IMG/VR virus record: IMGVR_UViG_3300006869_002135
Span: 1 to 20,131 of that record
DNA: 20,131 bases
Reading direction: 5' to 3' (one strand)
From: a virus
Shown here: one piece after another, positions 1 through 14,878 of the stretch
How the letters are laid out: each line of letters starts with the position of its first letter
How positions within the stretch are numbered: position 1 is the stretch's first letter
Notes under the pieces: generated by a model
Databases searched by the model: none
The model's input: the letters and a program-made list of their open reading frames with translations, nothing else
Told to the model about the DNA's origin: nothing
Position numbers and translations under genes: made by a program

Positions 1-822
1 AAGTTTGGACCTTTGGGGGATGAATATCATTTAGATGGATTTGAACAAAGAGAGGATTATGAGGATTTAAAAGACCAGTTTTGGGTGTGGATGGATAAGA
101 ATTCACAACACCTAAGACAGTTTCAAATATTAGGAGGAGAACCATTCTACATTCCAGAATGGGAAGAATGTTTAAGATTTTTTGAAGAAAGAGAACATCC
201 AAATCTTCGATGGAAAATATTTTCAAATCTTAAACACAACCCAAGAAAATTTAAAAAAGTAGTTGAAAGATTACAGAGATTAATTGATTCAAAAAAGTTA
301 CTTACATTCCAAGTAGTGTGTAGTATAGATAACTGGGGACCTCAAGGTGAGTTAGCCAGACATGGTATGGATTTAAAAGTATGGGAAGAAAACTTTAACA
401 CCATGCTATATGATTCAGATATAGAAATTATGATACATTCAACTATATCTCCAGTTACCATGTCAACTATGCCAGACCTATATAGAAAAGTTATGGAATG
501 GAGAAAAGTTAAACCAATGGATCTTAGTTGGAATATTATAGCCAACCCTACTTTTATGGCACCTGAAATTATGGGGCATCATTTAGGTAAGTATTTTGAT
601 GAACTATTAGACGTGGTACACGATATAGGACATTGGCGTAAGGTTCTTGAAGGATTTAAACAGCAGGTAGTTTCCCATGAAGTAGATTTTGTGAGACTGA
701 CTAAACTGGAAAATTATCTAGACAACATAGATAAAAGAAGAGGTACTGATTGGAGATCAATTTATCCAGAAATTGTCGAGGTAATAAATACAAACCCAGA
801 TAGATATGAAGATAAAACCTAA
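1..822 (+). CDS. radical SAM protein, C-terminal part (5' end outside window)
   Basis: The frame is open from base 1, so this gene is cut by the left edge; the TTG at 13 is not its real start. What remains is 273 codons. It keeps the second half of a radical SAM fold: the GGEP motif (about residues 45-48 of the visible part), which in this superfamily contacts the amino group of S-adenosylmethionine, and a later block with SIDNWG, E, RHG and W that lines up with the SIDGxG...EYxRxG block of the next gene. The CxxxCxxC cluster motif should lie upstream and is not visible. The C-terminus (RRGTDW, YPEIVE) looks complete. It overlaps the next radical SAM gene by 17 nt, so the two are probably translated from one transcript. 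The substrate is unknown. Confidence 0.85.
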   Translation, partial: KFGPLGDEYHLDGFEQREDYEDLKDQFWVWMDKNSQHLRQFQILGGEPFYIPEWEECLRFFEEREHPNLRWKIFSNLKHNPRKFKKVVERLQRLIDSKKLLTFQVVCSIDNWGPQGELARHGMDLKVWEENFNTMLYDSDIEIMIHSTISPVTMSTMPDLYRKVMEWRKVKPMDLSWNIIANPTFMAPEIMGHHLGKYFDELLDVVHDIGHWRKVLEGFKQQVVSHEVDFVRLTKLENYLDNIDKRRGTDWRSIYPEIVEVINTNPDRYEDKT

Positions 823-2164
823 AGACGGGAATAAAACATTTTGTATGGCACCATTTAGTCATACATACCTTTCTCCTCAAAGTGAAAGAAGAATGTGTTG
901 TGCATCTAGAGAAACAGCTGAATTTGCATCACAATACCTTGATCTTAACAATGCTACAGACCATAAAGACTTAGCAAAATACAACCCCACAACCTTAAAA
1001 GATCATTGGAATTCAGAGTATATGAAAAAGGTTAGGCGAGATCTTATGGCTGGAAAAGTTATACCTCAATGTCAGGTCTGTAATAATCAGCTTTTAAACA
1101 TTTCTATATACAGAACATATTTTAACCAAACTTTATTTCCACATAAAATTGATGAAGCTTTTGAAAAGACCCATGATGATGGTTATACTGAACTTCCTCC
1201 TATATCATTTGACTATAGAGTAAAAAACTTATGTAACTTTAAATGTAGAATGTGTGGAGACCAATTATCTTCTTCTTGGGAGGCAGAACGAAGAGCAATG
1301 GGTGATTATGATAGAGAAGGTAACGCAGATTTTTGGGCATTGAAAAAGTTTAAACCTGCTATTGAAAAATTTCAAGAGGAGGTTGCAGAAGCCGAATTGT
1401 GGGAAGCGGTAAAGAATGGTACTATCGAAGAAATATATTGGGTAGGAGGAGAACCTTTAATGTGGGAAATTCATTGGGAGATTATGGAGTATCTCATTGA
1501 ACATGATTTAGCTAAAAATGTGTGGATTAGATACAACACTAATTTTTCTCGTACAACATACAAACACTGGGATTTAAGAGAGATGTTACCTCATTTTAAA
1601 CAGGTACAAATTTGTGCATCTATCGACGGTACAGGTGAAATAGTTGAATACGTAAGACACGGTATAAAATGGGATCAATGGATAAGTAACTTTAAAGATT
1701 TTTTATTTTTAAATAAACAGTACGGTGAATATGGAATAGCTTTTGATTTAACTATAACAACCCCAGGTTTATTTAGTCTTAAAGACTTATTTGACTTATC
1801 ATTAGAATTAGATGTACATACGTTAATAAAAACTACCTTTGCTTTCGACAGTTCTATTATGATGTGCCCACAGGTACTACCAAGGGATTTATATGATGAA
1901 ATCATAGATGATCTTATAGCATACATACAACCTAAAGTTGAAAAACACCCTAAACACAAACACTGGATAGACAGTTTAACAGACCTAAAAGAAAGACAGG
2001 TATTTCAAGAACAATACCCAGATTGGAGAGAAGGTTTAGAAAGAGGTAAAGCTAATCTTTTAAAAGTTGATAAGTGGAGAAAAAACGAAGGTGTGATCGA
2101 TAAAATATACAAAGATAATAACATAAAAGTATACAATTGGTGGAAACAAAATCCCCTTACATAG
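806..2164 (+). CDS. radical SAM protein with N-terminal twitch-like cysteine motif
   Basis: A complete 452-residue protein. The radical SAM CxxxCxxC motif is C143, C147, C150 (LCNFKCRMCG), which binds the [4Fe-4S] cluster that cleaves S-adenosylmethionine. It is followed by SSSW (155-158), GGEP (214-217) and a SIDGTGE...EYVRHG block. Before the core lies a second cysteine set, C13, C31-C32 and C89-x2-C92, which resembles a twitch/SPASM auxiliary cluster site. The C-terminus has no CxxC pair. The ATG at 806 overlaps the previous gene by 17 nt and places the first cysteine 13 residues in, as in its siblings. The gene belongs to a row of six related genes. Radical SAM chemistry is well supported by the motifs; the actual substrate cannot be told. 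The likeliest general role is modification of a peptide, sugar or other small molecule in the cytoplasm. Confidence 0.92.
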   Translation: MKIKPKDGNKTFCMAPFSHTYLSPQSERRMCCASRETAEFASQYLDLNNATDHKDLAKYNPTTLKDHWNSEYMKKVRRDLMAGKVIPQCQVCNNQLLNISIYRTYFNQTLFPHKIDEAFEKTHDDGYTELPPISFDYRVKNLCNFKCRMCGDQLSSSWEAERRAMGDYDREGNADFWALKKFKPAIEKFQEEVAEAELWEAVKNGTIEEIYWVGGEPLMWEIHWEIMEYLIEHDLAKNVWIRYNTNFSRTTYKHWDLREMLPHFKQVQICASIDGTGEIVEYVRHGIKWDQWISNFKDFLFLNKQYGEYGIAFDLTITTPGLFSLKDLFDLSLELDVHTLIKTTFAFDSSIMMCPQVLPRDLYDEIIDDLIAYIQPKVEKHPKHKHWIDSLTDLKERQVFQEQYPDWREGLERGKANLLKVDKWRKNEGVIDKIYKDNNIKVYNWWKQNPLT

Positions 2165-3381
2165 GAATAGAAAAAGAATATAGGGACAAACCTTTTTGTG
2201 TACTACCCTGGATTCACCTAGCTACACACCCTATAGGTACAGTAACACCATGCTGTATAACCGATATGAAAGACGGTGTTTCTACAGCAGCAGCTGATTT
2301 TGACGACAAGTACCATCTGTTTTTATCCAAGGATAGTTTAGAGTCAATAGCAAATTCAAAGAAGTTTAAGCAAGTTAGGAAACAAATGCTTAACGGTGAA
2401 CAACCTCATGTGTGTAGAAACTGTTACAAGTATGAAGAAGGTGGTGTTGATTCTAAAAGAATAGAAGAAAATAAGGTATGGGAAAAATACATCGAAGAAT
2501 GTTTTTCTAACACCAGAACAGACGGGTCACTAAAAGAAGTTAATTACAAGTATGTTGAATTAAGACTAGGTACAGTATGTAATTTAAAATGTATTTCATG
2601 TAATCCATTCTCATCAAATAGATGGCATCAAGATTTACATGCTTTTAAAGATACTGAGTTTAGTAACATGTACTATAGAAATGATATTAAGACAGAGTGG
2701 TATAGAGACTATGATTTTTATGACGAACTTTATAGTAGATGTAATGGACTTGAAGAAGTATGGATAAACGGAGGAGAACCTACACTGATAAAAGAACACG
2801 GATATTTTTTAGAAAAGTTTATTAATGACGGTACCAGTAAAAACATAGACCTACATTATAGCTTAAACTGTACACAATTTCCTGATAAGTTTATAGAAAT
2901 ATGGAAACAATTCAGAAAAATAAAAATACATTTATCTATAGATGATCTTGCTGAAAGAAATTATTATATTAGATTCCCTTCTGATTGGAATATTATTATG
3001 GAATCTTTTAATAAAATATTAAAATATAGAGATAGATTTAATCTTGAAGTTTGTCAGACGGTAAGTGCACTCAATGTATCTAATATAGATAACTTTAAAA
3101 AATTTACTTTAGATCACGATTTAATTATAGGACATAATTTTGTACACTACCCATCACATCTACAGGTAAACCTTATTCCTGATGAAATGAAGCATAAAAT
3201 ATTAGATAATTTAAAGTACCTTAGAGATGATGAAACTCAAAGATTAAAAATTGAATTATTTAAAGAATATACACAAAAAGAAGTAGATAGATTTTATAGC
3301 TTTATTAACATAATGGATAAAACTAGAAATGTTAAAATAGGAGATTATCTCCCAGAATGGAAACCTTACTTCAATGGATAA
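2137..3381 (+). CDS. radical SAM protein with N-terminal twitch-like cysteine motif, TTG or GTG start
   Basis: About 414 residues. The core motif is C148, C152, C155 (VCNLKCISC) and GGEP is at 212-215. The N-terminal auxiliary set is C21, C39-C40 and C93-x2-C96, with a glycine five residues before C39 as in the CX9-15GX4C half of a twitch/SPASM site. The start is not ATG: an in-frame stop (TAA, 2119-2121) lies just upstream and no ATG occurs before the first conserved cysteine, so TTG 2137 or GTG 2140 must be used. This overlaps the previous gene by up to 28 nt, which suggests translational coupling. The SSSW after the core cysteines in several siblings is SSNRW here, and the SIDGxG block has become SIDDLA, so this copy has diverged from its neighbours and may act on a different substrate. 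Confidence 0.9.
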   Translation: MVETKSPYIGIEKEYRDKPFCVLPWIHLATHPIGTVTPCCITDMKDGVSTAAADFDDKYHLFLSKDSLESIANSKKFKQVRKQMLNGEQPHVCRNCYKYEEGGVDSKRIEENKVWEKYIEECFSNTRTDGSLKEVNYKYVELRLGTVCNLKCISCNPFSSNRWHQDLHAFKDTEFSNMYYRNDIKTEWYRDYDFYDELYSRCNGLEEVWINGGEPTLIKEHGYFLEKFINDGTSKNIDLHYSLNCTQFPDKFIEIWKQFRKIKIHLSIDDLAERNYYIRFPSDWNIIMESFNKILKYRDRFNLEVCQTVSALNVSNIDNFKKFTLDHDLIIGHNFVHYPSHLQVNLIPDEMKHKILDNLKYLRDDETQRLKIELFKEYTQKEVDRFYSFINIMDKTRNVKIGDYLPEWKPYFNG

Positions 3382-4654
3382 ATTAGAGAACAAATCAATC
3401 TGTTTAGCTCCTTGGCTTTCTATACATACTTGGCCAGATGGTTCTACTTTTCCATGCTGTGTTTGGGATTCAGATGACCCTATAGGAAACATTAACGATA
3501 CGGATTTAACTACTATTTGGAACAATAGTAAGTTAAGAGATGTTAGAGTTAAAATGCTTAACGGAGAGAAAGTAAAATCATGTGAGAGATGCCATAAGTT
3601 AGAGGAACTAGAACCTTACTCATATAGGTTAAAAATAAATAAAGACTTCAACGACAGTTTCGATATTATCGAAAAAACCGATAAAAACGGTAACGTTGAA
3701 GAAATGAAAATTAAACTGTGGGATTTTAGATTATCCAATTTTTGTAATTTAAAATGTCGTAGTTGTGGTATTAGTTTAAGTTCATCATGGTACGGAGATT
3801 TAATTGAACTTAAACCTATGTTAAAAGGTAAAATAAAAGCACTTATTTCTGTAAACGACAAAGTTTCATTTATGGATATGATTGAAAATCAATACGACTA
3901 TGTAGAAGAAATTTATTTTGCCGGAGGAGAACCTTTAATTACACCAGAACACTATACAATTTTAGATAAATTAATAGAAAGAGGAAATACTAATATTAGG
4001 TTACGGTACAGTACTAACCTTACAAACCTAGTCTATAAAGGTAAGCATATTTTTGACTATTGGAAGCATTTTCCTAATTTAGAGGTTTTAATTAGTTTAG
4101 ACGGAGTTAAAAAACAGGGAGAATATATTAGAAAAGGTTTAAACTATAGTGAGTTAAAGCAGAATGTTTACGCTCTTAGAGACAGTGGGTTGACTTTTAC
4201 AAAGGTTGGGTTTATGGTTACATACGGAGTACTAAATTATGAACATTTATTTGACATAATTTTAGAATTTCTTAAAGAAGATCTTACAGATAAAGATTTT
4301 CCTGTTCATGGTAGATATAATTTAAGAGAAATTTTATTTAGTCCAATTTATCGACCTCAAAATTTAGACTGTAGTTACTTACCATCTACGTTTAAAAAAA
4401 GATACTTTCAAAGACTACAAAACTTTGGTCAAGAACTCGATAAAATAGACACTCACGAAAAAGTAAAACAAGATTTAATTGGTAAGTTAAAATCTGTTTA
4501 CGAACATAGTACACAAAATCAGTACAGTCGCAGCATTATGGAATCTTTTGTTAGGGATACAGTAAGATTAGATGAAGTAAGAAAAGAAAAATTTAACGAT
4601 GTTTTTGAAGGCATTGATCTTTTTAACGATTATACAAATGATAGTTTAATATAA
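3374..4654 (+). CDS. radical SAM protein with N-terminal twitch-like cysteine motif
   Basis: A complete 426-residue protein. It has the cleanest auxiliary motif of the set: C10, G23, C28-C29, matching CX12GX4C, then C70-x2-C73. The radical SAM cluster motif is C124, C128, C131 (FCNLKCRSCG), followed by SSSW (136-139), GGEP (184-187) and a SLDG...GEYIRKG block. The ATG at 3374 overlaps the stop of the previous gene by 8 nt. No Shine-Dalgarno sequence is visible. A stretch between the auxiliary site and the core (about 88-118) is charged and probably a linker. After its stop, 6 nt separate it from the glycosyltransferase-like gene, so it is very likely co-transcribed with that gene. Radical SAM assignment is firm; substrate unknown. 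Confidence 0.92.
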   Translation: MDKLENKSICLAPWLSIHTWPDGSTFPCCVWDSDDPIGNINDTDLTTIWNNSKLRDVRVKMLNGEKVKSCERCHKLEELEPYSYRLKINKDFNDSFDIIEKTDKNGNVEEMKIKLWDFRLSNFCNLKCRSCGISLSSSWYGDLIELKPMLKGKIKALISVNDKVSFMDMIENQYDYVEEIYFAGGEPLITPEHYTILDKLIERGNTNIRLRYSTNLTNLVYKGKHIFDYWKHFPNLEVLISLDGVKKQGEYIRKGLNYSELKQNVYALRDSGLTFTKVGFMVTYGVLNYEHLFDIILEFLKEDLTDKDFPVHGRYNLREILFSPIYRPQNLDCSYLPSTFKKRYFQRLQNFGQELDKIDTHEKVKQDLIGKLKSVYEHSTQNQYSRSIMESFVRDTVRLDEVRKEKFNDVFEGIDLFNDYTNDSLI

Positions 4655-4660
4655 ATTGGA

Positions 4661-5968
4661 ATGGATATAAATAGCAAACCTATAAAACTTAAACGCCCAG
4701 TATACTTTGTTGGAGAAGGGTATTACCATGTAGTAGACACTAAACAAGCTGTTTTTGGCAATTTTCACCACTTTGGATACATAGAACACGTTGTAATGTC
4801 ATATGTAGAACAAACTGAAGTTACCGCACCATTAGTTATTTTACAGGAAACTAGATACCCGTACGATAACTACATAGAAAAACTAGATGAAATGTTATCT
4901 AGTTACAAAATTGATAGTACCAATGCGTTTTTTTATATATTTACCGAACAAGAACCAAGACCAGCAACTTATTCATTCTGGGTTCCATACTTGCTTCAAA
5001 AGTTTAAAGTTCCTGCAAATAACATTGTTTATATGAACAGTGTGAAGTGTGAGTTAGACTCCGATTTACCGATTAATGTTGTATCCAACCCACTATTAGG
5101 TATAAAGTTTGCTTCTAATCACACAGATATAGCTTCATATAGAGCCGAACATGAAATCAATATGTTTTCTACAAAAAATAAATTATTTAGTAACCTGGTA
5201 CGTAGACTAAACATATCTAGAGTTTTAACTACAGCAGCACTAATGAAAAATTTTAACAAAGACCAATATGTACTCAGCTGTGGCGAAGACGATATTGTGA
5301 AGTTTGGTTCAAGTCACGAAAATTTTTATAACAGAATTGCTGCAAGTGTAGGTCATGATTTAAATTTTATGAGTAAACTACCTATCAGGTTTGATTCTAA
5401 ATTAGATGTTACCGTATCAAGCGGACATCAATTTAAAATGACAGACAGGTCTTTACAAACTTGTTTATTTGAGGTTGTTCATGAAACGGTAGGTGCTCAG
5501 GATATTTTTATGGAGCAATCGGTAATGACGGCAGATAATTTCTTTTGCGTCACTGAAAAATCTTTTAGACATGCATTTAATTTACAAATTCCTATTTTTA
5601 TGAGTAGGGCAGGGTTTTACAAGTGGTTTTATGAAACTTTTGGCCTTAGACCTTATAAAAGCATTCCATGGCAAGAATGGGACGAGATGCAAGACTACCA
5701 CACAAAGGTAAATTCTGTAGTGAAATTTTTAAAATCTATTAATAAACAGGATTATCAAAAAATATTTGACGAAAATAAAGATATTATACACCATAATGTA
5801 ATAAAATTACGTAATCATGCTATAGTTCACCATTTCTACGCCTTAGAAGTAGCACAAACTGCAGCAGGTATACACTGGGACACTAAGTCATTAAATACTA
5901 CACTAGGTAACTACTTAAGTAAAATAGGTAGCGACCTTAAGACATTTATTCAATCAGCACCAATTTAA
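4661..5968 (+). CDS. putative glycosyltransferase-like protein (GT10/phage glycosyltransferase style)
   Basis: 435 residues with no radical SAM motif, although it sits in the middle of the radical SAM row. The C-terminal half has a pattern I associate with fucosyltransferase-like and related phage glycosyltransferases: a KLFSNLVRRLNISRVL stretch (about 174-189) like the usual N.R...HR..L block, then acidic ETVGAQD (275-281), FFCVTEKSF (294-302) and IPIFMSRAGFY...FG (310-328). In that family the TEK block and the following IPI...G segment lie in the sugar-nucleotide binding domain. The N-terminal 120 residues resemble a Rossmann-like domain. No signal peptide or membrane segment is seen, so it should act in the cytoplasm. 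It starts 6 nt after one radical SAM gene, and its stop overlaps the start of the next (TAATG). The family call rests on pattern memory, so a generic phage protein of unknown function remains possible. Confidence 0.5.
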   Translation: MDINSKPIKLKRPVYFVGEGYYHVVDTKQAVFGNFHHFGYIEHVVMSYVEQTEVTAPLVILQETRYPYDNYIEKLDEMLSSYKIDSTNAFFYIFTEQEPRPATYSFWVPYLLQKFKVPANNIVYMNSVKCELDSDLPINVVSNPLLGIKFASNHTDIASYRAEHEINMFSTKNKLFSNLVRRLNISRVLTTAALMKNFNKDQYVLSCGEDDIVKFGSSHENFYNRIAASVGHDLNFMSKLPIRFDSKLDVTVSSGHQFKMTDRSLQTCLFEVVHETVGAQDIFMEQSVMTADNFFCVTEKSFRHAFNLQIPIFMSRAGFYKWFYETFGLRPYKSIPWQEWDEMQDYHTKVNSVVKFLKSINKQDYQKIFDENKDIIHHNVIKLRNHAIVHHFYALEVAQTAAGIHWDTKSLNTTLGNYLSKIGSDLKTFIQSAPI

Positions 5969-7005
5969 TGGTAGATTTAAATAACTTTATTTGTATTAAC
6001 CCTTTTACCTACACCGAAATAATGGAAGATAGGCAAACTTTCTGCTGTCCACAATGGTTAGAGGAGTATATAGAAGGTGAGACTATAGATTACAAACAAA
6101 GTTGGAATTCAGATAAAGCTCTTAGCATCAGGCAATCAATGGTAGATGGTTCGTTTAAGTATTGTAGTACTTCTAAATGTCCACACTTATCAACACTTCT
6201 TAATACCGGTAAACTTTCTAGAGGACCTATTAAACAAAAAACAGACAGTTTAGTTAGGAGTCTAACTGACGATAGTATGTTAGGGCCTAAAGAAATAAAA
6301 TTTATATTTGATCAAGCATGTAATCTAGCATGTCCTTCTTGTAGAAACAGTTTTGTAAGAAACTCAGAAGAAATATATGTAAATTCTACTACCAAGTTAG
6401 AAAAATTATCGGATGCTTATTCTAACAGTGTAGAAAGCATTTCAATGTCCGGTGCAGGTGACCCTTTTTACAGTCAAACATTTTTTGAGTTTTTACAAAA
6501 TATTGACATTGATAAGTTTCCAAAATTAAATAGAATACATTTACATACAAATGCAATACTTTGGAACGAACATAATTGGAAAAAAATAATAAATTCTCAC
6601 AGTTTTATTAAATCAACTGAAATATCAATAGATGCTGCTACTGAAAAGACTTATAAGGTAGTAAGAAAAGGTGGCAATTTTGAAATACTTACACGTAACT
6701 TGAAATTTATTAGTACATTAAGAGGTATAAAAAGTTTTATATTTTCCTTTGTTGTACAAAAAGAAAACTATACTGAACTTGTAGACTTTCATAGGTATAT
6801 AGAAAGTATTTTTGACCGTCAAATGAAAATGGGACTAGTTTCGGTAACATATACAAAAGTACAGAATTGGGGGAACCTATCTGAGGAAGGTTATAACGAT
6901 ATGGCAGTACACCAACCCAAACACCCAGAGTATAAACTGTTTTTAGAAGAAGTAAATAAATTAATGTCTTTACAAAGCCCACATGTAATAACCAATCTTT
7001 TATAA
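5968..7005 (+). CDS. divergent radical SAM protein (GAGDP instead of GGEP)
   Basis: 345 residues, the shortest complete member of the radical SAM set. The cluster motif is intact (C118, C122, C125; ACNLACPSC). The usual GGEP is replaced by SGAGDP (161-166), which keeps a glycine-rich turn and an acidic residue at the S-adenosylmethionine-contacting strand. The N-terminal auxiliary cysteines are present but respaced: C9, C26-C27, and C66...C71 (C-x4-C rather than C-x2-C). The later block reads SIDAATEKTYKVVRKGG. The C-terminal part after about residue 290 is shorter than in its siblings. ATG overlaps the previous stop by one base, and its own stop overlaps the next start by one base (both TAATG), so all three genes are translationally coupled. 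It is a radical SAM enzyme by motif, but from a different subgroup; substrate unknown. Confidence 0.85.
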   Translation: MVDLNNFICINPFTYTEIMEDRQTFCCPQWLEEYIEGETIDYKQSWNSDKALSIRQSMVDGSFKYCSTSKCPHLSTLLNTGKLSRGPIKQKTDSLVRSLTDDSMLGPKEIKFIFDQACNLACPSCRNSFVRNSEEIYVNSTTKLEKLSDAYSNSVESISMSGAGDPFYSQTFFEFLQNIDIDKFPKLNRIHLHTNAILWNEHNWKKIINSHSFIKSTEISIDAATEKTYKVVRKGGNFEILTRNLKFISTLRGIKSFIFSFVVQKENYTELVDFHRYIESIFDRQMKMGLVSVTYTKVQNWGNLSEEGYNDMAVHQPKHPEYKLFLEEVNKLMSLQSPHVITNLL

Positions 7006-8216
7006 TGGAGTTTAACAAAGATACATTTTGCATGATGACCCATAAAGGTTTTTTTGTTCAACCGGATAGAAAAATAAAACCTTGTTGTGTTTTTACTGAT
7101 TTTGACATTCCAGTATTATATGATGAGTCGAAAACATTTGATGAAATGTTTAACTCACCTCAATTTATAGACTTGAGGCAAAAGATGGATTCCGGCATTA
7201 TACATAAAGGTTGTGAGGGTTGTTTTAACGGTAAAACTGAAATGAGGGAGGGACTCAATACTTTTCTTTTTGAAAACGACTACAATATTTTAAAACACAT
7301 AATACCTGTAGATAAAAAATCTACAAATATACACTACTTGGATTTAAGACTATCAAACCTATGTAATTTTAAGTGTAGAATGTGTAACGAAACTTATTCA
7401 TCGTCATGGGCACAAGAAAAACAAAAGCTAAATATACCCATTTCTAAACTAAACGGAGTATCAGACTTATCAGAGGATTATTTAGACGTTATTAAAGATA
7501 GTATAAAAGATTTAAAATATCTCTACCTTGGGGGAGGTGAACCCTTTATAATGAAAGAAACTTTTGAACTGTTAAATTTACTAACTGCGGAACAAAAGTC
7601 TAAAATTACTTTGGCTCTTAATACTAATTTATCTACCTTATATTATAAAGGATTGGATATACTAGAGATGTTAGGACAATTTCAAAGTGTTTACTTTAAT
7701 GTATCTTGTGACGGTATAGGTAAAGTAGGAGAATATCAACGAACCGGTTTTGACACATTAAAATTTGAACACAACGTAAAGAAGGTTCTTGAAAGAAAAA
7801 ATAAATTTAAACAGTTTGAAATTAGATTTACTTATGCATTAGGTGCGGTTAACATTTTTCATTTACCTGATTTTTTATCCTACATTAAGCAAAAGTTTAA
7901 TTTAACTGAAGATAACGTAGGTGTTGAGTTTATAGAATGGCCATGGTATTATAATATCGGCAATTCATCTCCAAAATTTAAAACTAAAGTAAAAACTTTT
8001 ATAGACAACCTACAGATAAACAAAAACTCAGAACTTTTCAGAAGACTTTCCAGCTACAAGTCTTTTATTGATCAAACCTTTAAAATAAACAACCCTATAA
8101 ACGACATTAATTTTATAAACACTATTGACAACCACAGAGGAGATTCCTTAAAAGAAACCGCTCCTTGGGTTGTAAAAGATATTTTAAACTATAACTTACA
8201 TTCTAAAACAATATGA
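7005..8216 (+). CDS. radical SAM protein with N-terminal twitch-like cysteine motif
   Basis: A complete 403-residue protein. The core motif is C120, C124, C127 (LCNFKCRMCN), followed by SSSW (132-135), GGGEP (176-180) and SCDGIG...GEYQRTG. The auxiliary set is C9, C27-C28 and C70-x2-C73; the glycine seen before the first CC pair in two siblings is an arginine here, so the twitch-like motif is looser. It is the last gene of the radical SAM row. Its start overlaps the previous stop by one base, and the next small gene overlaps its end by 4 nt (ATGA). It lies immediately before the tail module, but no promoter signal separates it from the preceding genes. Chemistry is clear, substrate is not. 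Confidence 0.92.
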   Translation: MEFNKDTFCMMTHKGFFVQPDRKIKPCCVFTDFDIPVLYDESKTFDEMFNSPQFIDLRQKMDSGIIHKGCEGCFNGKTEMREGLNTFLFENDYNILKHIIPVDKKSTNIHYLDLRLSNLCNFKCRMCNETYSSSWAQEKQKLNIPISKLNGVSDLSEDYLDVIKDSIKDLKYLYLGGGEPFIMKETFELLNLLTAEQKSKITLALNTNLSTLYYKGLDILEMLGQFQSVYFNVSCDGIGKVGEYQRTGFDTLKFEHNVKKVLERKNKFKQFEIRFTYALGAVNIFHLPDFLSYIKQKFNLTEDNVGVEFIEWPWYYNIGNSSPKFKTKVKTFIDNLQINKNSELFRRLSSYKSFIDQTFKINNPINDINFINTIDNHRGDSLKETAPWVVKDILNYNLHSKTI

Positions 8217-8458
8217 TTAAACTTACAGAACAAGAAATAGAGCAGTTGAACAACTATAAAACTACCAGAACAAATCTAACTTTAGAGTTTGGTAACATAT
8301 CTATATTAAGAAAGCAATTAGATGAAAGAGAAGAAAATGCTGCAAAATTATGGGCAGGATTTACAAAATCTCAAAATGAATTTGCTATCCAATTAGAAAA
8401 CAAATATGGACGTGGTACCGTAGATACTGACACTGGTGAATTTATTCCAATTAAGTAA
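8213..8458 (+). CDS. small coiled-coil protein of unknown function
   Basis: 81 residues, rich in Glu, Lys, Gln and Asn, with heptad-like hydrophobic spacing over about residues 4-65, so a helical coiled coil is likely. The end has a short glycine-containing tail (KYGRGTVDTDTGEF, about 64-77). It contains no cysteine, no signal peptide and no membrane segment. It overlaps the last radical SAM gene by 4 nt (ATGA), so it is probably translated by coupling. Proteins of this size and shape are, from memory, common near tail genes of marine T4-like phages and remain unnamed there. A structural or assembly-helper role is possible but is inference only. Confidence 0.75.
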   Translation: MIKLTEQEIEQLNNYKTTRTNLTLEFGNISILRKQLDEREENAAKLWAGFTKSQNEFAIQLENKYGRGTVDTDTGEFIPIK

Positions 8459-8569: not shown

Positions 8570-10288
8570 ATGGCAGAAACATTAATCTCCCCAGGTGTAC
8601 TAGCAAGAGAAAATGATATTTCATTTATCGCACCAGCCGCATTAGAAGCTGGGGCAGCTATCATTGGACCAACAGTAAAGGGTCCCGTAGAAGAACCTAC
8701 GTTAGTAACCTCATATGGAGAATATTCAAGAATATTTGGTACTACTTTTACTTCTGGATCAACTAAGCAAGAATTTTTAACTTCACTAGCAGTAAAGTCA
8801 TACTTTGGACAAGGTGGTAATTCTGTACTAGTTAGTAGAATTGTATCTGGTGCATTTGCAGCAGCAGACAACACCCACATTTCTTCATCAGATAACGGCA
8901 GTGTACAACCATTCACTGTTGCTACTTTAGGTAAAGGTACCATTTACAATAACTCAGGTTCCCAAACTACAGACGGTTCTTTACCTCTTGGGTCAGAAGA
9001 TAACCTTAGATGGGAAATTACCAATGTTAGTGAAGCAAAAGGAACATTTAGTCTATTGATTAGACAAGGTAACGACCAGACTAAAAATAAAATTATTTTA
9101 GAAACATGGAATGATTTATCTTTAGATCCTAATTCAGGTAACTATATTGAATCAAGAATCGGTAACCAAACTAAATCAATTGCCTCAGATGGTTCTACTA
9201 AATATATTTCGTTAAGTGGTGAGTACGCTAACAAATCTAAGTATATTAGAATTGCTTCAGTACCTGGCCAAACATTAGACTATTTAGACAATGACGGAAA
9301 TGTTAGAGTAGCAGCTTCAACAGGCTCTTTACCAACAGCACAATCTGGTTCGTTTGAAAATGCTACAGGAGATATTGTACAAGGAGGAGATAATTACTTT
9401 AGTAATATTAACAATACAGATACTCAAGGATTAGTAGGTGGCAACTATAACAATATTATTTCAGTATTAGAAAATAAAGACGAGTATGTATTTAACATTA
9501 TTTCTGCACCTGGATTAATTTATGAGTTTGGTAATCATTCTACTCAGTTAGATAACATAATTTCCTTATCAGAAACAAGAGGAGATTGTATTGCAGTTGT
9601 TGATACTCAAAACTATGGTGCTACCGTAGCAGATGTAACAGGTACAGCAGCTAGCCTTAATTCATCTTATGCAGCTACATACTGGCCTTGGTTGCAAATG
9701 CAATCAGGTACAGGTAAAAATGAATTCGTACCTGCATCAGTTGTTATTCCTGGAGTATATGCATTTACAGATGGAGCAGCAGCACCTTGGTTTGCACCAG
9801 CTGGTTTAACTAGAGGAGGCATTCCTAACGTAATTCAAGCAGAAAGAAAATTAACAAGATCTCAAAGAGATACTTTATACAATGCTAACGTTAACCCAAT
9901 CGCTACATTCCCAGGAAGTGGAATTTCAGTATTTGGTCAGAAGACGTTACAGAAAAAACCATCTGCTCTTGATAGAGTAAATGTACGTAGATTACTAATC
10001 GAATTGAAAAAATTCGTTGGTGATGTATCAAGAACATTAGTATTTGAGCAAAACACAAATGTCACTAGAAATAGATTCCTAGCTCAAGTTAACCCTTACT
10101 TAACTTCAGTTGTAGAGCAGCAAGGTCTTTACGCTTATAGAGTAGTAATGGACGATACTAATAATACAGCAGACGTAATCGACCGTAATCAATTAATAGG
10201 TCAAATATTCATTCAACCAGCCAAAACAGTTGAGTTTGTAGTATTAGACTTTACTATTGAGCCAACAGGAGCGACATTTGGAGCATAA
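8570..10288 (+). CDS. gp18: contractile tail sheath protein (T4 gp18-like)
   Basis: 572 residues, shorter than the 659-residue T4 sheath but in the usual range for this family. The N-terminus (ISPGVLARENDIS, then the GPTVKGPVEEPTLV segment and YGEYSRIFG) is the typical sheath start. The C-terminal domain carries the conserved polymerising region: GISVFGQKTL, then ALDRVNVRRLL, FEQNT...R, and DRNQLIGQIFIQPAKTVEF. The variable middle (about 90-330) is rich in Ser, Thr, Gly and Asn, as expected for the outward-facing insertion. Sheath subunits stack as rings around the tail tube and contract at infection. The ATG has no Shine-Dalgarno sequence; an A/T-rich leader with the TATTTATAA motif precedes it. 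The tube gene follows 34 nt downstream, the normal T4-like order. Confidence 0.96.
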   Translation: MAETLISPGVLARENDISFIAPAALEAGAAIIGPTVKGPVEEPTLVTSYGEYSRIFGTTFTSGSTKQEFLTSLAVKSYFGQGGNSVLVSRIVSGAFAAADNTHISSSDNGSVQPFTVATLGKGTIYNNSGSQTTDGSLPLGSEDNLRWEITNVSEAKGTFSLLIRQGNDQTKNKIILETWNDLSLDPNSGNYIESRIGNQTKSIASDGSTKYISLSGEYANKSKYIRIASVPGQTLDYLDNDGNVRVAASTGSLPTAQSGSFENATGDIVQGGDNYFSNINNTDTQGLVGGNYNNIISVLENKDEYVFNIISAPGLIYEFGNHSTQLDNIISLSETRGDCIAVVDTQNYGATVADVTGTAASLNSSYAATYWPWLQMQSGTGKNEFVPASVVIPGVYAFTDGAAAPWFAPAGLTRGGIPNVIQAERKLTRSQRDTLYNANVNPIATFPGSGISVFGQKTLQKKPSALDRVNVRRLLIELKKFVGDVSRTLVFEQNTNVTRNRFLAQVNPYLTSVVEQQGLYAYRVVMDDTNNTADVIDRNQLIGQIFIQPAKTVEFVVLDFTIEPTGATFGA

Positions 10289-10322: not shown

Positions 10323-10808
10323 ATGGCAGTAGTAGATCCTAACGAAATAATGTTCAGAGCCTTTGAACCAAAGGTGCAAAATAGATTCTTAATGTTTGTC
10401 GATGGTATTCCATCATTCATGATAAGAACAGCAGCTGGTCCAAATTTTACTGACAACTCAATCAAATTAGACCATATGAATACTTACCGTAAGATTAGAG
10501 GTAAGAGAGAATGGGGTGATATTGATATGACTTTATATGATCCAATCACACCATCTGGTGCACAAGCAGTAATGGATTGGGCTAGATTGTCATACGAATC
10601 TGTAACAGGTAGAGCTGGATATTCAGACTTCTATAAGAAAGATTTAACACTACAAGTTTTAGGACCTGTAGGTGATATAGTTAGTGAATGGGTAATTAAA
10701 GGCGCATTCATTACAGATATGGATCAAGGAGGATTTGACTGGGCTACTGACGAAACAGTAGAGCTTTCAATTACAGTTGCAATGGATTATTGCGTACTTA
10801 ACTTCTAA
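10323..10808 (+). CDS. gp19: tail tube protein (T4 gp19-like)
   Basis: 161 residues, close to the 163 of T4 gp19. The features fit the family: an N-terminal segment FRAFEPKVQNRFLMFVDGIP, then the KLDHMNTYRKIRGKREWGDI region, the WARLSYESVTGRAGYSDFYKK region, and the ending GGFDWATDE...ITVAMDYC. This protein forms stacked hexamers that make the inner tube through which DNA passes. It follows the sheath gene by 34 nt and is followed by a strong intrinsic terminator, which should set off the highly expressed sheath-tube pair from the genes downstream. No Shine-Dalgarno sequence is visible; the start context is AAATAAAATG. Confidence 0.96.
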   Translation: MAVVDPNEIMFRAFEPKVQNRFLMFVDGIPSFMIRTAAGPNFTDNSIKLDHMNTYRKIRGKREWGDIDMTLYDPITPSGAQAVMDWARLSYESVTGRAGYSDFYKKDLTLQVLGPVGDIVSEWVIKGAFITDMDQGGFDWATDETVELSITVAMDYCVLNF

Positions 10809-11965: not shown

Positions 11966-14878
11966 ATGGCCACACCAGATCCTAGAGAACTACAAAGACT
12001 GATTAAACAGTTAACCGATATCCAAGATAAAATTAAGGATATAGGCGGTACTCCTATTAAAGTAAACTTTGAAGGAAAAACTGCTGAGGATGTTGCCAAA
12101 GAATTTGGTAGTGCAAAAGATGCTATTGGACAGGTCAAATCTGCACTGCGTAATGCCCAAGGAGAACTTAATAACCTTCTTGACGGTTCAGCTGAATTTG
12201 CAAATCTAACTAAAGCAATTAGAGAGGAGTTTACTAAATTACCTTCCGGATTAAATGCCACAAGAGCTTCTTTCAGAAAAATAAACGGGTACGCTCAGGA
12301 ACTAACTGAGATGAGTGCTGATATTTTGAAAACAAATGTCAAAGATGTTAGAGCACTCAAAGAAAAAACAGCATTAGAATTTAAAAGAGCTGCTAAAAGA
12401 GCAGGTTCGTTAGAAGAAGAACTTACAAAAGCTAAACAAATACAAGCTGAAGAAGAAGCAAAGTATCTAGCTATTGATAAAAATGACAAAAGAGCAGAAC
12501 AAGCTCAATTAAAACGTTATAAAGCTGCTAAAGGTACTGTTGAGGAATTGCAAGCAGCTACAGCAGCAGCAAAAGATCAAGTAGGTTTAGCTCAAGCTGC
12601 AGAAGATGCGTATGAAGGTGTAGAAAAAAGACTTAAAACAATAAATCAAACAGCTGGACTAACGACAGGTCTACTGGGAGGTTTAGGAGCAGCTTTTGAA
12701 AAAGTAGGTTTTGGAGGTCTAGCTAAACACTTTGAAGCAGGTAGTGAGGCTGCAACTGAATTTGCAGATAAAATTACTGAAAGCGGCACTAAGGCTACAT
12801 TATTAACTAAGACTCTTGGTAATCTTGGTTCTTTATTTGTAGGTATCGGTAAGACAGCAACCTCGGCACTTGGTTCCTTACTAAGTCCACAAGGACTGTT
12901 TATTAGTGGTTTAACACTAATGTTTAAACAGTTTATGCATATTGATCATGCTGTAGCAGAAACAGGTAAATCTTTAGGTTTATCTAGAGATGCAGCACAT
13001 GAAATGACAATGGCAATAAAAAGTTCTGCTGCAGCTACCGGTGATACCTTCCTTAATATGGATAGATTACTCAAATCACAAGTTGAATTGAGTGAATCGT
13101 TAGGTACTAACGTAAGATTTACCGGAGAACAATTAGCCAACACAGCAAGACTAAGAGACCTAGTAGGATTACAAGGTGACGAACTTAAAAATGTTCTTAC
13201 ATCTTCTATGTTAGTAGGCAAATCACAAGAAGAACTATATGATTCTGTTGTTGCCACTAACGATACTATATTTGCATCAAACACACTGTTTAAAGAAGCA
13301 GCAAATACGACAGGTCAGATTGCACTTAATTTTGGAAATAATATAACTGCAATAGCAAAGGCAGCTGGAGAAGCAAAAAGGCTAGGTATTAACCTTAATA
13401 CTGCCAGAGATATGGCAATGGGTACACTGGATTTTGAAACCAGTATTGCTAAGGAAATGGAAGCTCAAGTTTTAACCGGTAGGTCAATAAATCTTAATAG
13501 AGCTAGAGAGTTAGCTTTTGCAGGTGATTTTACAGGTGCAGCTAATGAAATGCTTAAACAAGTAGGCGGTATAGGTGAGTTTCAGGAAATGAATGTTCTA
13601 GCCCAGCAGTCGTTAGCAGAGGCTATGGGTATGACAGTAGATCAATTAGCCGATCAAATTCGTCAACAAGAAGTAAATGCTAAAATTTCTGCTAGACAAG
13701 CTGAACTAATAAGAGCTGGTGTAGATCCTGCTGAAGCTCAGCTAAAAGCAATGAGAGAAAATCAAACAGTTGGTGAAAGACTTGGAAATGCTTTTAGTAA
13801 AATTGGAGACTTTATTGGTGGTAAAATTGCACCAGCAGTAGAATTTGTTGCAGACAACCTTGAAAGAGCAATGGTCTTTTTTGGAGGGTTGTTTGGTTCC
13901 AGCAAAGGCACTGCTTCAGAAGTAGAAAAGCTTTCTCCTAAAATGAAAGAAGCTCAAGAAGCAGGAATGAATATTGCAAAATCATTTGAAGGAGTATCTA
14001 ATTTTGTTAAACCACTTGGTGGTTACTTGCAAAAAGCATTTGACTACCTTAAAGATAGCCCTGTATTAAAACTTCTTGGCGGATTAGCTGGTGGTGCTTT
14101 AGTACTAAAAGGAGCTAAAAACCTATTTCAAGGTAAAGGATTATTCGGTCAGAAACTTGGTGCATCAGCTAGCAACCCTATGTTTGTTAAAATGGCCGAT
14201 GGTAGTTTTACAGACAGTATAGGTAGTTCTATTTCGAAGACGCTTAAAGGTAGGTTATTTAAAGGCTTATCTAGTGTAGTCGGTGGTAAGAAAACAATGG
14301 CTGGTAGAGCCTTAAGAGGTGCGGCAGCTAAATCTATGGGCGGCGGATTAGCTAAAACAGCTTTAAGAGGTGGAGGAAAAGCAGCTGGAAAAGTAGGTGC
14401 GAAAGGAGTGGCTAAACTAGGAGCTAAAGCATTAGGTAAGGCAGCTCTCAAAAAAATACCCGGTATTGGATTGTTAGCAGGTATAGGGTTCGGCCTTCAA
14501 AGAGCACTTAAAGGTGATATAGCTGGAGCAGCATTAGAATTAGCTTCTGGCGGTGCAAGTTTAATACCAGGAGCAGGTACGGCAGCATCGATTGGCATTG
14601 ATGCTCTATTAGCGGCAAGAGATGTTAAAAAAGCACAAACTCCTTCTGAAGATACTCAACCTATTCAACAAACATCTCCTCAGCAAATTAATGCTGCAGA
14701 TTTTGTAATAAAAACTTTACCTGAAGATACAATAACAATGGCCGGCGGTACGCAATTTGGTAAAGAAACTAACGACTTATTAAGACAATTAATAGCTGCT
14801 GTAAATCAAGGTGGCGACGTTATGTTAGATGGAGTTAAAGTAGGAAACACTTTAGCTTTATCATCTTATAAACTTTAA
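11966..14878 (+). CDS. tail tape measure protein
   Basis: 970 residues, the longest gene here. It is rich in Ala, Gly, Lys and Glu. The N-terminal third (to about 230) is mostly charged helix with coiled-coil character. Hydrophobic segments follow (about 285-325 and around 700), then a Gly/Ala/Lys-rich stretch (about 775-840) and another small-residue hydrophobic region near 845-885. The end (DGVKVGNTLALSSYKL) matches the style of T4-like tape measure C-termini. Such proteins sit extended inside the tail tube, set its length and are ejected at infection. T4 gp29 is 590 residues, so this tail should be considerably longer if about 1.5 angstrom per residue holds. Position between the gp26-like/assembly pair and the junction protein supports the call. 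The ATG follows a TATTTATAA motif; no Shine-Dalgarno sequence is seen. Confidence 0.88.
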   Translation: MATPDPRELQRLIKQLTDIQDKIKDIGGTPIKVNFEGKTAEDVAKEFGSAKDAIGQVKSALRNAQGELNNLLDGSAEFANLTKAIREEFTKLPSGLNATRASFRKINGYAQELTEMSADILKTNVKDVRALKEKTALEFKRAAKRAGSLEEELTKAKQIQAEEEAKYLAIDKNDKRAEQAQLKRYKAAKGTVEELQAATAAAKDQVGLAQAAEDAYEGVEKRLKTINQTAGLTTGLLGGLGAAFEKVGFGGLAKHFEAGSEAATEFADKITESGTKATLLTKTLGNLGSLFVGIGKTATSALGSLLSPQGLFISGLTLMFKQFMHIDHAVAETGKSLGLSRDAAHEMTMAIKSSAAATGDTFLNMDRLLKSQVELSESLGTNVRFTGEQLANTARLRDLVGLQGDELKNVLTSSMLVGKSQEELYDSVVATNDTIFASNTLFKEAANTTGQIALNFGNNITAIAKAAGEAKRLGINLNTARDMAMGTLDFETSIAKEMEAQVLTGRSINLNRARELAFAGDFTGAANEMLKQVGGIGEFQEMNVLAQQSLAEAMGMTVDQLADQIRQQEVNAKISARQAELIRAGVDPAEAQLKAMRENQTVGERLGNAFSKIGDFIGGKIAPAVEFVADNLERAMVFFGGLFGSSKGTASEVEKLSPKMKEAQEAGMNIAKSFEGVSNFVKPLGGYLQKAFDYLKDSPVLKLLGGLAGGALVLKGAKNLFQGKGLFGQKLGASASNPMFVKMADGSFTDSIGSSISKTLKGRLFKGLSSVVGGKKTMAGRALRGAAAKSMGGGLAKTALRGGGKAAGKVGAKGVAKLGAKALGKAALKKIPGIGLLAGIGFGLQRALKGDIAGAALELASGGASLIPGAGTAASIGIDALLAARDVKKAQTPSEDTQPIQQTSPQQINAADFVIKTLPEDTITMAGGTQFGKETNDLLRQLIAAVNQGGDVMLDGVKVGNTLALSSYKL

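Follow-up and report, generated by a model that had tools for sequence, protein, structure and literature searches.

Twitch-domain radical SAM genes in a row beside a phage tail module: a candidate pathway for glycan building and editing

Clusters of several radical S-adenosylmethionine (SAM) genes have been described in phages before. Exchangeable clusters of five such genes were reported in 2010 for the Campylobacter phages CP220 and CPt10 (PMC2853527); that of CP220 (FN667788 70,690-79,755) is a radical SAM row that includes two genes for nucleotide-diphospho-sugar transferases and has baseplate/PAAR genes nearby. In 2020, radical SAM cassettes were reported in the host recognition cluster of pelagimyophages, which are marine myophages (PMC7029224). 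Radical SAM genes have also been found enriched in some marine viromes (PMC7150976). Here, we analysed the virus record IMGVR_UViG_3300006869_002135 of IMG/VR, taken at its whole length of 20,131 bases (hereafter the window) and probably a genome fragment, in which positions 1 to 8216, starting at the left contig end, are occupied by a head-to-tail series of six radical SAM genes and one other gene, all on the + strand. Our leading reading, held tentatively, is that this row is a phage pathway that builds and edits a glycan, most likely acting on the host surface. The window row works like a CP220-type exchangeable module and is not a member of that type. Both are glycosyltransferase-bearing rows by tail or baseplate genes, with accessory content swapped between close relatives, but the CP220 radical SAM proteins show only generic similarity to the family found here (NF033640, best score 31 bits) and thus fall in a different subfamily, and their cluster has an amidinotransferase and shows no twitch-core order. 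The pelagimyophage cassettes, which share a variable region with glycosyltransferases close to tail fibre genes, are likened to the row by description only, being mentioned in passing, without subfamily, row length or core order. An initial annotation, made from the letters of the window alone, had implied that a row of this kind was new; multi-radical-SAM phage modules had already been reported (PMC2853527, for another subfamily; PMC7029224), and the open literature searched (subscription papers not covered) gave no account of the conserved twitch core, of the order of its genes or of its occurrence on a bacterial chromosome as well.

All six copies match NCBIfam NF033640 (twitch domain-containing radical SAM protein, N_Twi_rSAM; curated cut-off 170 bits), with E-values from 5.6e-20 to 2.5e-106. 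Four score above the cut-off, namely rS2 (806-2164, group A, 319 bits), rS3 (2137-3381, TTG start, placed in group E with the tree, 340 bits), rS4 (3374-4654, group F, 356 bits) and rS7 (7005-8216, 274 bits). Below it are rS1 (1-822, group K, open at its 5' end, 124.5 bits over model positions 153-397) and rS6 (5968-7005, group J, 71.8 bits), a shorter, divergent twitch radical SAM enzyme which, since its score lies under the cut-off, is by profile a relative of NF033640 and not a filed member. The Pfam Radical_SAM profile finds rS2, rS4, rS6 (44 bits) and rS7 over its own cut-off and rS3 just under it, and rS1, being truncated, is recognised by NF033640 and PHROG only. Indeed, truncation at the contig end leaves rS1 without the N-terminal twitch domain and the CxxxCxxC motif; its intact orthologue in the closest relative (viral locus L037), to whose residues 147-416 it is 88% identical, carries the twitch cysteines as well as the motif, there CNQKCLYC. 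CxxxCxxC and a four-cysteine N-terminal twitch pattern occur in 5/5 uncut copies, at positions 13/31/89/92 in rS2, 21/39/93/96 in rS3, 10/28/70/73 in rS4, 9/26/66/71 in rS6 and 9/27/70/73 in rS7 (18/37/75/78 in K, the rS1 orthologue), and rS6 carries GAGDP instead of GGEP. The window copies are thus like the family in domain order (N-terminal twitch, then radical SAM) and motifs, with 4/6 over the cut-off; NF033640 is a family name and not a function, and the window differs by having it as a row of 6-8.

By Pfam and NCBIfam, the window genes belong to the radical SAM superfamily, as the initial annotation had proposed for six same-strand genes in a row, and all six are found as open reading frames (ORFs) with NF033640 matches. 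Its account of the joints, as overlaps of 1-28 nucleotides (nt) or a 6-nt gap, is reproduced from the ORF coordinates: the overlaps are 17, 28, 8, 1 and 1 nt, and rS7 overlaps the small following gene s8 (8213-8458, + strand) by 4 nt. The non-radical-SAM ORF P5 (4661-5968, + strand) is embedded between rS4 and rS6. Promoter and terminator scans gave fewer sites than in shuffles, hence no operon boundary is claimed. Weak generic matches to phrog_2076 in the row might suggest a service in phage DNA or nucleotide hypermodification, given that phages carry QueE-like radical SAM enzymes for deazaguanine and that glycosyltransferases can act on DNA. We regard this as very improbable: the phrog_2076 matches reflect the general fold, the row adjoins tail and nucleotide-sugar genes, and no DNA-modification gene was recognised inside the row, with only one upstream gene, at locus L029, giving a partial weak DNA-methyltransferase PHROG match.

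The row recurs in many other viruses. Scans of IMG/VR gave 15 loci with rS4 as bait; rS2 and a group B protein each gave 599 or more confirmed stretches, of which the best 80 were read. These sets are bait-selected, so that the frequencies given here hold for bait-bearing loci and not for all phages. A first set of ~95 loci holds 537 radical SAM ORFs, 519 of them full-length with CxxxCxxC, and no copy of at least 300 amino acids (aa) in that set lacks the motif. Row size is 2-10 in the viral loci examined, neighbouring pairs lie on the same strand in 428/432 cases, and 96% of directly adjacent genes overlap or sit no more than 10 nt apart. Two virus records of 246 kb and 103 kb (G004 and G005, the records of L098 and L095) contain 13 and 14 copies above the NF033640 cut-off, respectively. 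Orthologues of rS2 in other viral contigs are 47-95% identical to it and viral relatives of rS4 44-53% (63% in L037); for rS7, an orthologue was found in L037 only among the examined loci (64%). In L037, the order is GT7-lectin, GT7-lectin (two genes with a GT7 and a lectin domain), D, cl4 (lectin-like), B, K, A, E, F, P5, J, rS7, s8 and sheath. Since this locus, whose rS2 is 95% identical, has eight radical SAM genes, the window shows just the right part of an eight-gene row, and in nature the row exceeds six.

The gene order is itself conserved. With A as bait, B stands upstream in 60/64 loci and C/E downstream in 62/70; with B as bait, in contigs outside the first set, D/G/S stands upstream in 51/53 and A downstream in 20/48. 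A core D/G/S-B(-A-C/E) is therefore recurrent, and the counts of 51/53 against 20/48 make D/G/S-B its most constant unit. The copies could also be viewed as recent tandem duplicates kept without separate functions, as they are of one family and stand head to tail, but we consider this practically untenable. In the tree, every window copy groups with orthologues from other phages, six window rows require six label changes, and no phage row forms its own clade, that of Vibrio phage K566 excepted, whose grouping is left unsure by long branches. The window copies are mutually about 20-30% identical, against 63-95% to their L037 orthologues, and CxxxCxxC is kept in every copy of at least 300 aa in the first set. 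By tree and identity, the copies are divergent old paralogues and not recent tandem copies, as the initial annotation had argued; the near-identical recent duplicates that would have refuted it were not seen. Conserved order and co-occurrence make the dedicated multi-step pathway that it proposed a reasonable inference.

The genes around these rows favour sugars or glycans over the other targets that the initial annotation had listed. Neighbours with a recognised family are largely sugar genes, i.e., GT7 with a lectin domain, UDP-glucose dehydrogenase, carbamoyltransferase and epimerases, in addition to GNAT, GDSL-type hydrolase, glycogenin-like GT8 and GDP-fucose synthase, and, in 11 contigs with a combined length of about 1.26 Mb, 25/25 strong GT7 matches sit no more than 5 kb from one of the row's radical SAM genes. 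The neighbour families cl0 and cl1, like most small neighbours, found no counterpart in Pfam or PHROGs. A 194-aa protein, cl4 (e.g., L038 1378-1962), stands between D and B in 21 loci, and part of it is similar to the stretch of the GT7 proteins that holds the lectin domain (hhalign probability 93).

The embedded gene P5 was called glycosyltransferase-like in the initial annotation, a label that is reasonable, not proven: predicted fold agrees with it (model, PDB and BFVD), and sequence families do not bear it out. Profile searches gave no Pfam, NCBIfam or PHROG match for P5 and no glycosyltransferase family in 24 relatives at E 0.05, and there was no meaningful PDB sequence match. A close-relative search with P5 alone found nothing, and a two-sequence alignment as query, P5 having an orthologue 45% identical in L037, recovered relatives in L183 and L184; through a bridge protein in L183, P5 joins cl1, which adjoins many rows. 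Its AlphaFold2 model, built from 24 sequences, has a pLDDT of 67 and a pTM of 0.70, and its best PDB match is an alpha1,3-fucosyltransferase (E 0.024, probability 0.80), followed mostly by other GT-B enzymes. In BFVD, P5 strongly matches unnamed phage proteins (E down to 2e-8), one such neighbour being fused to a UDP-glucose/GDP-mannose dehydrogenase, and viral fucosyltransferases match weakly (E 0.016-0.042). With modest confidence, the model thus fits a GT-B, fucosyltransferase-like fold.

For the radical SAM enzymes themselves, the AlphaFold2 model of rS2 (pLDDT 91, pTM 0.89) has BlsE, of blasticidin S biosynthesis, as its best PDB match, then CteB, SuiB and EpeE, with DesII and SpeY lower. 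In the aminocyclitol dehydrogenase BtrN, the twitch domain that aligns with the N-terminal domain here is C-terminal, so that the domain order is permuted. BtrN, BlsE, SpeY and DesII are sugar or aminocyclitol radical SAM enzymes, to which no orthology is claimed, and the matches of this predicted structure fit both sugar and peptide chemistry.

Peptide chemistry would suit a role in the virion. In the window, the row is followed by s8, the tail sheath (8570-10288, + strand, phrog_23 E 1.3e-71), the tail tube (10323-10808, + strand, phrog_4542 E 2.7e-25), and then hub and tape-measure-like genes; the placement beside the tail module noted in the initial annotation also recurs at the loci of related phages. 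The row could therefore modify the phage's own tail fibre or sheath, with radical SAM enzymes making peptide cross-links or epimers and glycosyltransferases glycosylating the fibre. Twitch/SPASM enzymes often act on peptides, CteB, SuiB and EpeE come next after BlsE among the matches of rS2, and the row directly precedes s8, sheath and tube; the radical SAM cassettes of pelagimyophages likewise lie beside tail fibres (PMC7029224). We nevertheless hold a virion role to be unlikely. At L019, the row has no sheath or tube homologue found beside it, the nucleotide-sugar biosynthesis genes of the island would be unneeded for peptide cross-linking, and the same core stands on a Bacteriovoracaceae chromosome (L104 6043-18039), where eight twitch radical SAM genes include the B-A-C run also seen in phages. 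Judged by eye, the genes on either side of this row are obgE-like and lgt-like, and no tail genes were recognised within 10 kb. Such a bacterial row without tail genes counts against a purely virion role. Bacterial homologues come chiefly from Bdellovibrionota and Flavobacteriales, with at most 38% identity to rS4. Note that five loci binned as bacterial metagenome-assembled genomes (L112, L113, L115, L118 and L121) carry phage-type row neighbours and are probably viral by gene content, and that at L157 (6637-14043) four twitch radical SAM genes adjoin an integrase-like gene (by eye), which suggests a mobile island. The ~230-aa genes next to bacterial rows were considered as one family, which alignment ruled out; the one at L106 has a GT2-like look, by eye only, and does not count as evidence here.

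The tail module also informs on s8 and on the host. The sheath shares 64% identity with its counterpart in Flavobacterium phage immuto, in which an s8 homologue (E 2.5e-26) stands directly before the sheath and which gave no match in the rS2, rS4 and B searches; s8 is therefore counted in the structural core and not in the row. Gene starts show no Shine-Dalgarno-like sequence by eye which, together with the likeness of the sheath, makes a Bacteroidota host likely. Many relatives share 95-97% identity with the window in the tube and only 76-81% in the sheath, and have diverged much further in the tape-measure protein. The tape-measure-like protein of the window (11966-14878) has peptidase and endolysin PHROG matches at residues 774-888. 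Among relatives with a tube 96-97% identical to that of the window, the accessory genes between core and s8 vary and rS4 is about 50% identical. Such accessory turnover beside stable tail genes is as expected of a locus under competition.

The row might instead make a diffusible small molecule or a modified peptide (an antimicrobial, signal or cofactor). Multi-radical-SAM clusters are typical of such pathways, the structural neighbours include BlsE, DesII, SpeY and peptide maturases, and carbamoyltransferase, GNAT and GDSL-type genes occur in them too. We find this improbable, since the overlapping or touching row genes of the window leave no space for a precursor peptide, s8 belongs to the structural core, and no transporter or carrier protein was recognised, although most neighbours are without a family match. 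As a precursor peptide, s8 was rejected because it is a structural-core gene in immuto too.

From the genes, their family, fold class, order and co-occurrence, we infer a sugar substrate, the types of reaction and a surface target. On this reading, a conserved phage island would assemble a glycan and modify it chemically, and the row would be its right-hand part. In the island, (i) glycosyltransferases (the GT7-lectin pair upstream in relatives, P5 inside the row) would assemble or transfer sugars and (ii) each twitch radical SAM enzyme would be responsible for a single radical reaction at sugar carbons (e.g., dehydrogenation, epimerisation, decarboxylation or another C-H edit of that kind). 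A SAM-bound [4Fe-4S] cluster would generate the 5'-deoxyadenosyl radical; the N-terminal twitch domain would hold one auxiliary cluster, which may serve substrate binding or electron removal. The core D/G/S-B, often with A-C/E, would perform the shared steps, and swappable genes (F, J, rS7, P5-like, GDSL-type hydrolases) would make each phage's own variant. The product would most likely lie on the surface glycan of the infected host, altering receptors and excluding competing phages. Several results weigh against this glycan pathway: the position by the tail module, taken alone, would fit virion modification as well; the fit of the rS2 model to the peptide-modifying CteB, SuiB and EpeE is almost as good as to BlsE; the P5 model, on which its glycosyltransferase label depends, is a moderate one and finds nothing in the PDB below E 0.001; the neighbour family cl0 resisted placement; the L104 row contains no recognised glycosyltransferase; and the genes beside bacterial homologues, pooled in a Pfam scan, were a mixture with no common theme.

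A cultured phage carries a comparable cluster. Vibrio phage K566 (OZ196521; L102 4729-14190) has four twitch radical SAM genes, in between which stand two GT8 genes and a weak GT4-like gene. Two of its radical SAM proteins pass the NF033640 cut-off, and its proteins are about 23-26% identical to those of the window, over part of their length, on their own tree branch with long branches. The cluster adjoins an annotated PagP lipid A acylation gene.

Few other enzymes match the chemistry open to radical SAM enzymes, of which the known sugar pathways, to our knowledge, employ one or two. Relatives of the family are encoded by hundreds of viral contigs. A wider view, possible though doubtful, is that serial radical SAM glycan editing is widespread in phages and shared with bacterial chromosomes, combining a conserved two-enzyme core (D/G/S-B) with exchangeable tailoring enzymes, and that it amounts to a radical-chemistry glycan code used by phages in competing with one another or with their hosts. 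Thanks to the conserved core and to K566, a cultured phage, the question can be put to experiment. Should the product be a glycan, it would represent radical-edited sugars of a new class and shed light on the competition of phages for hosts.

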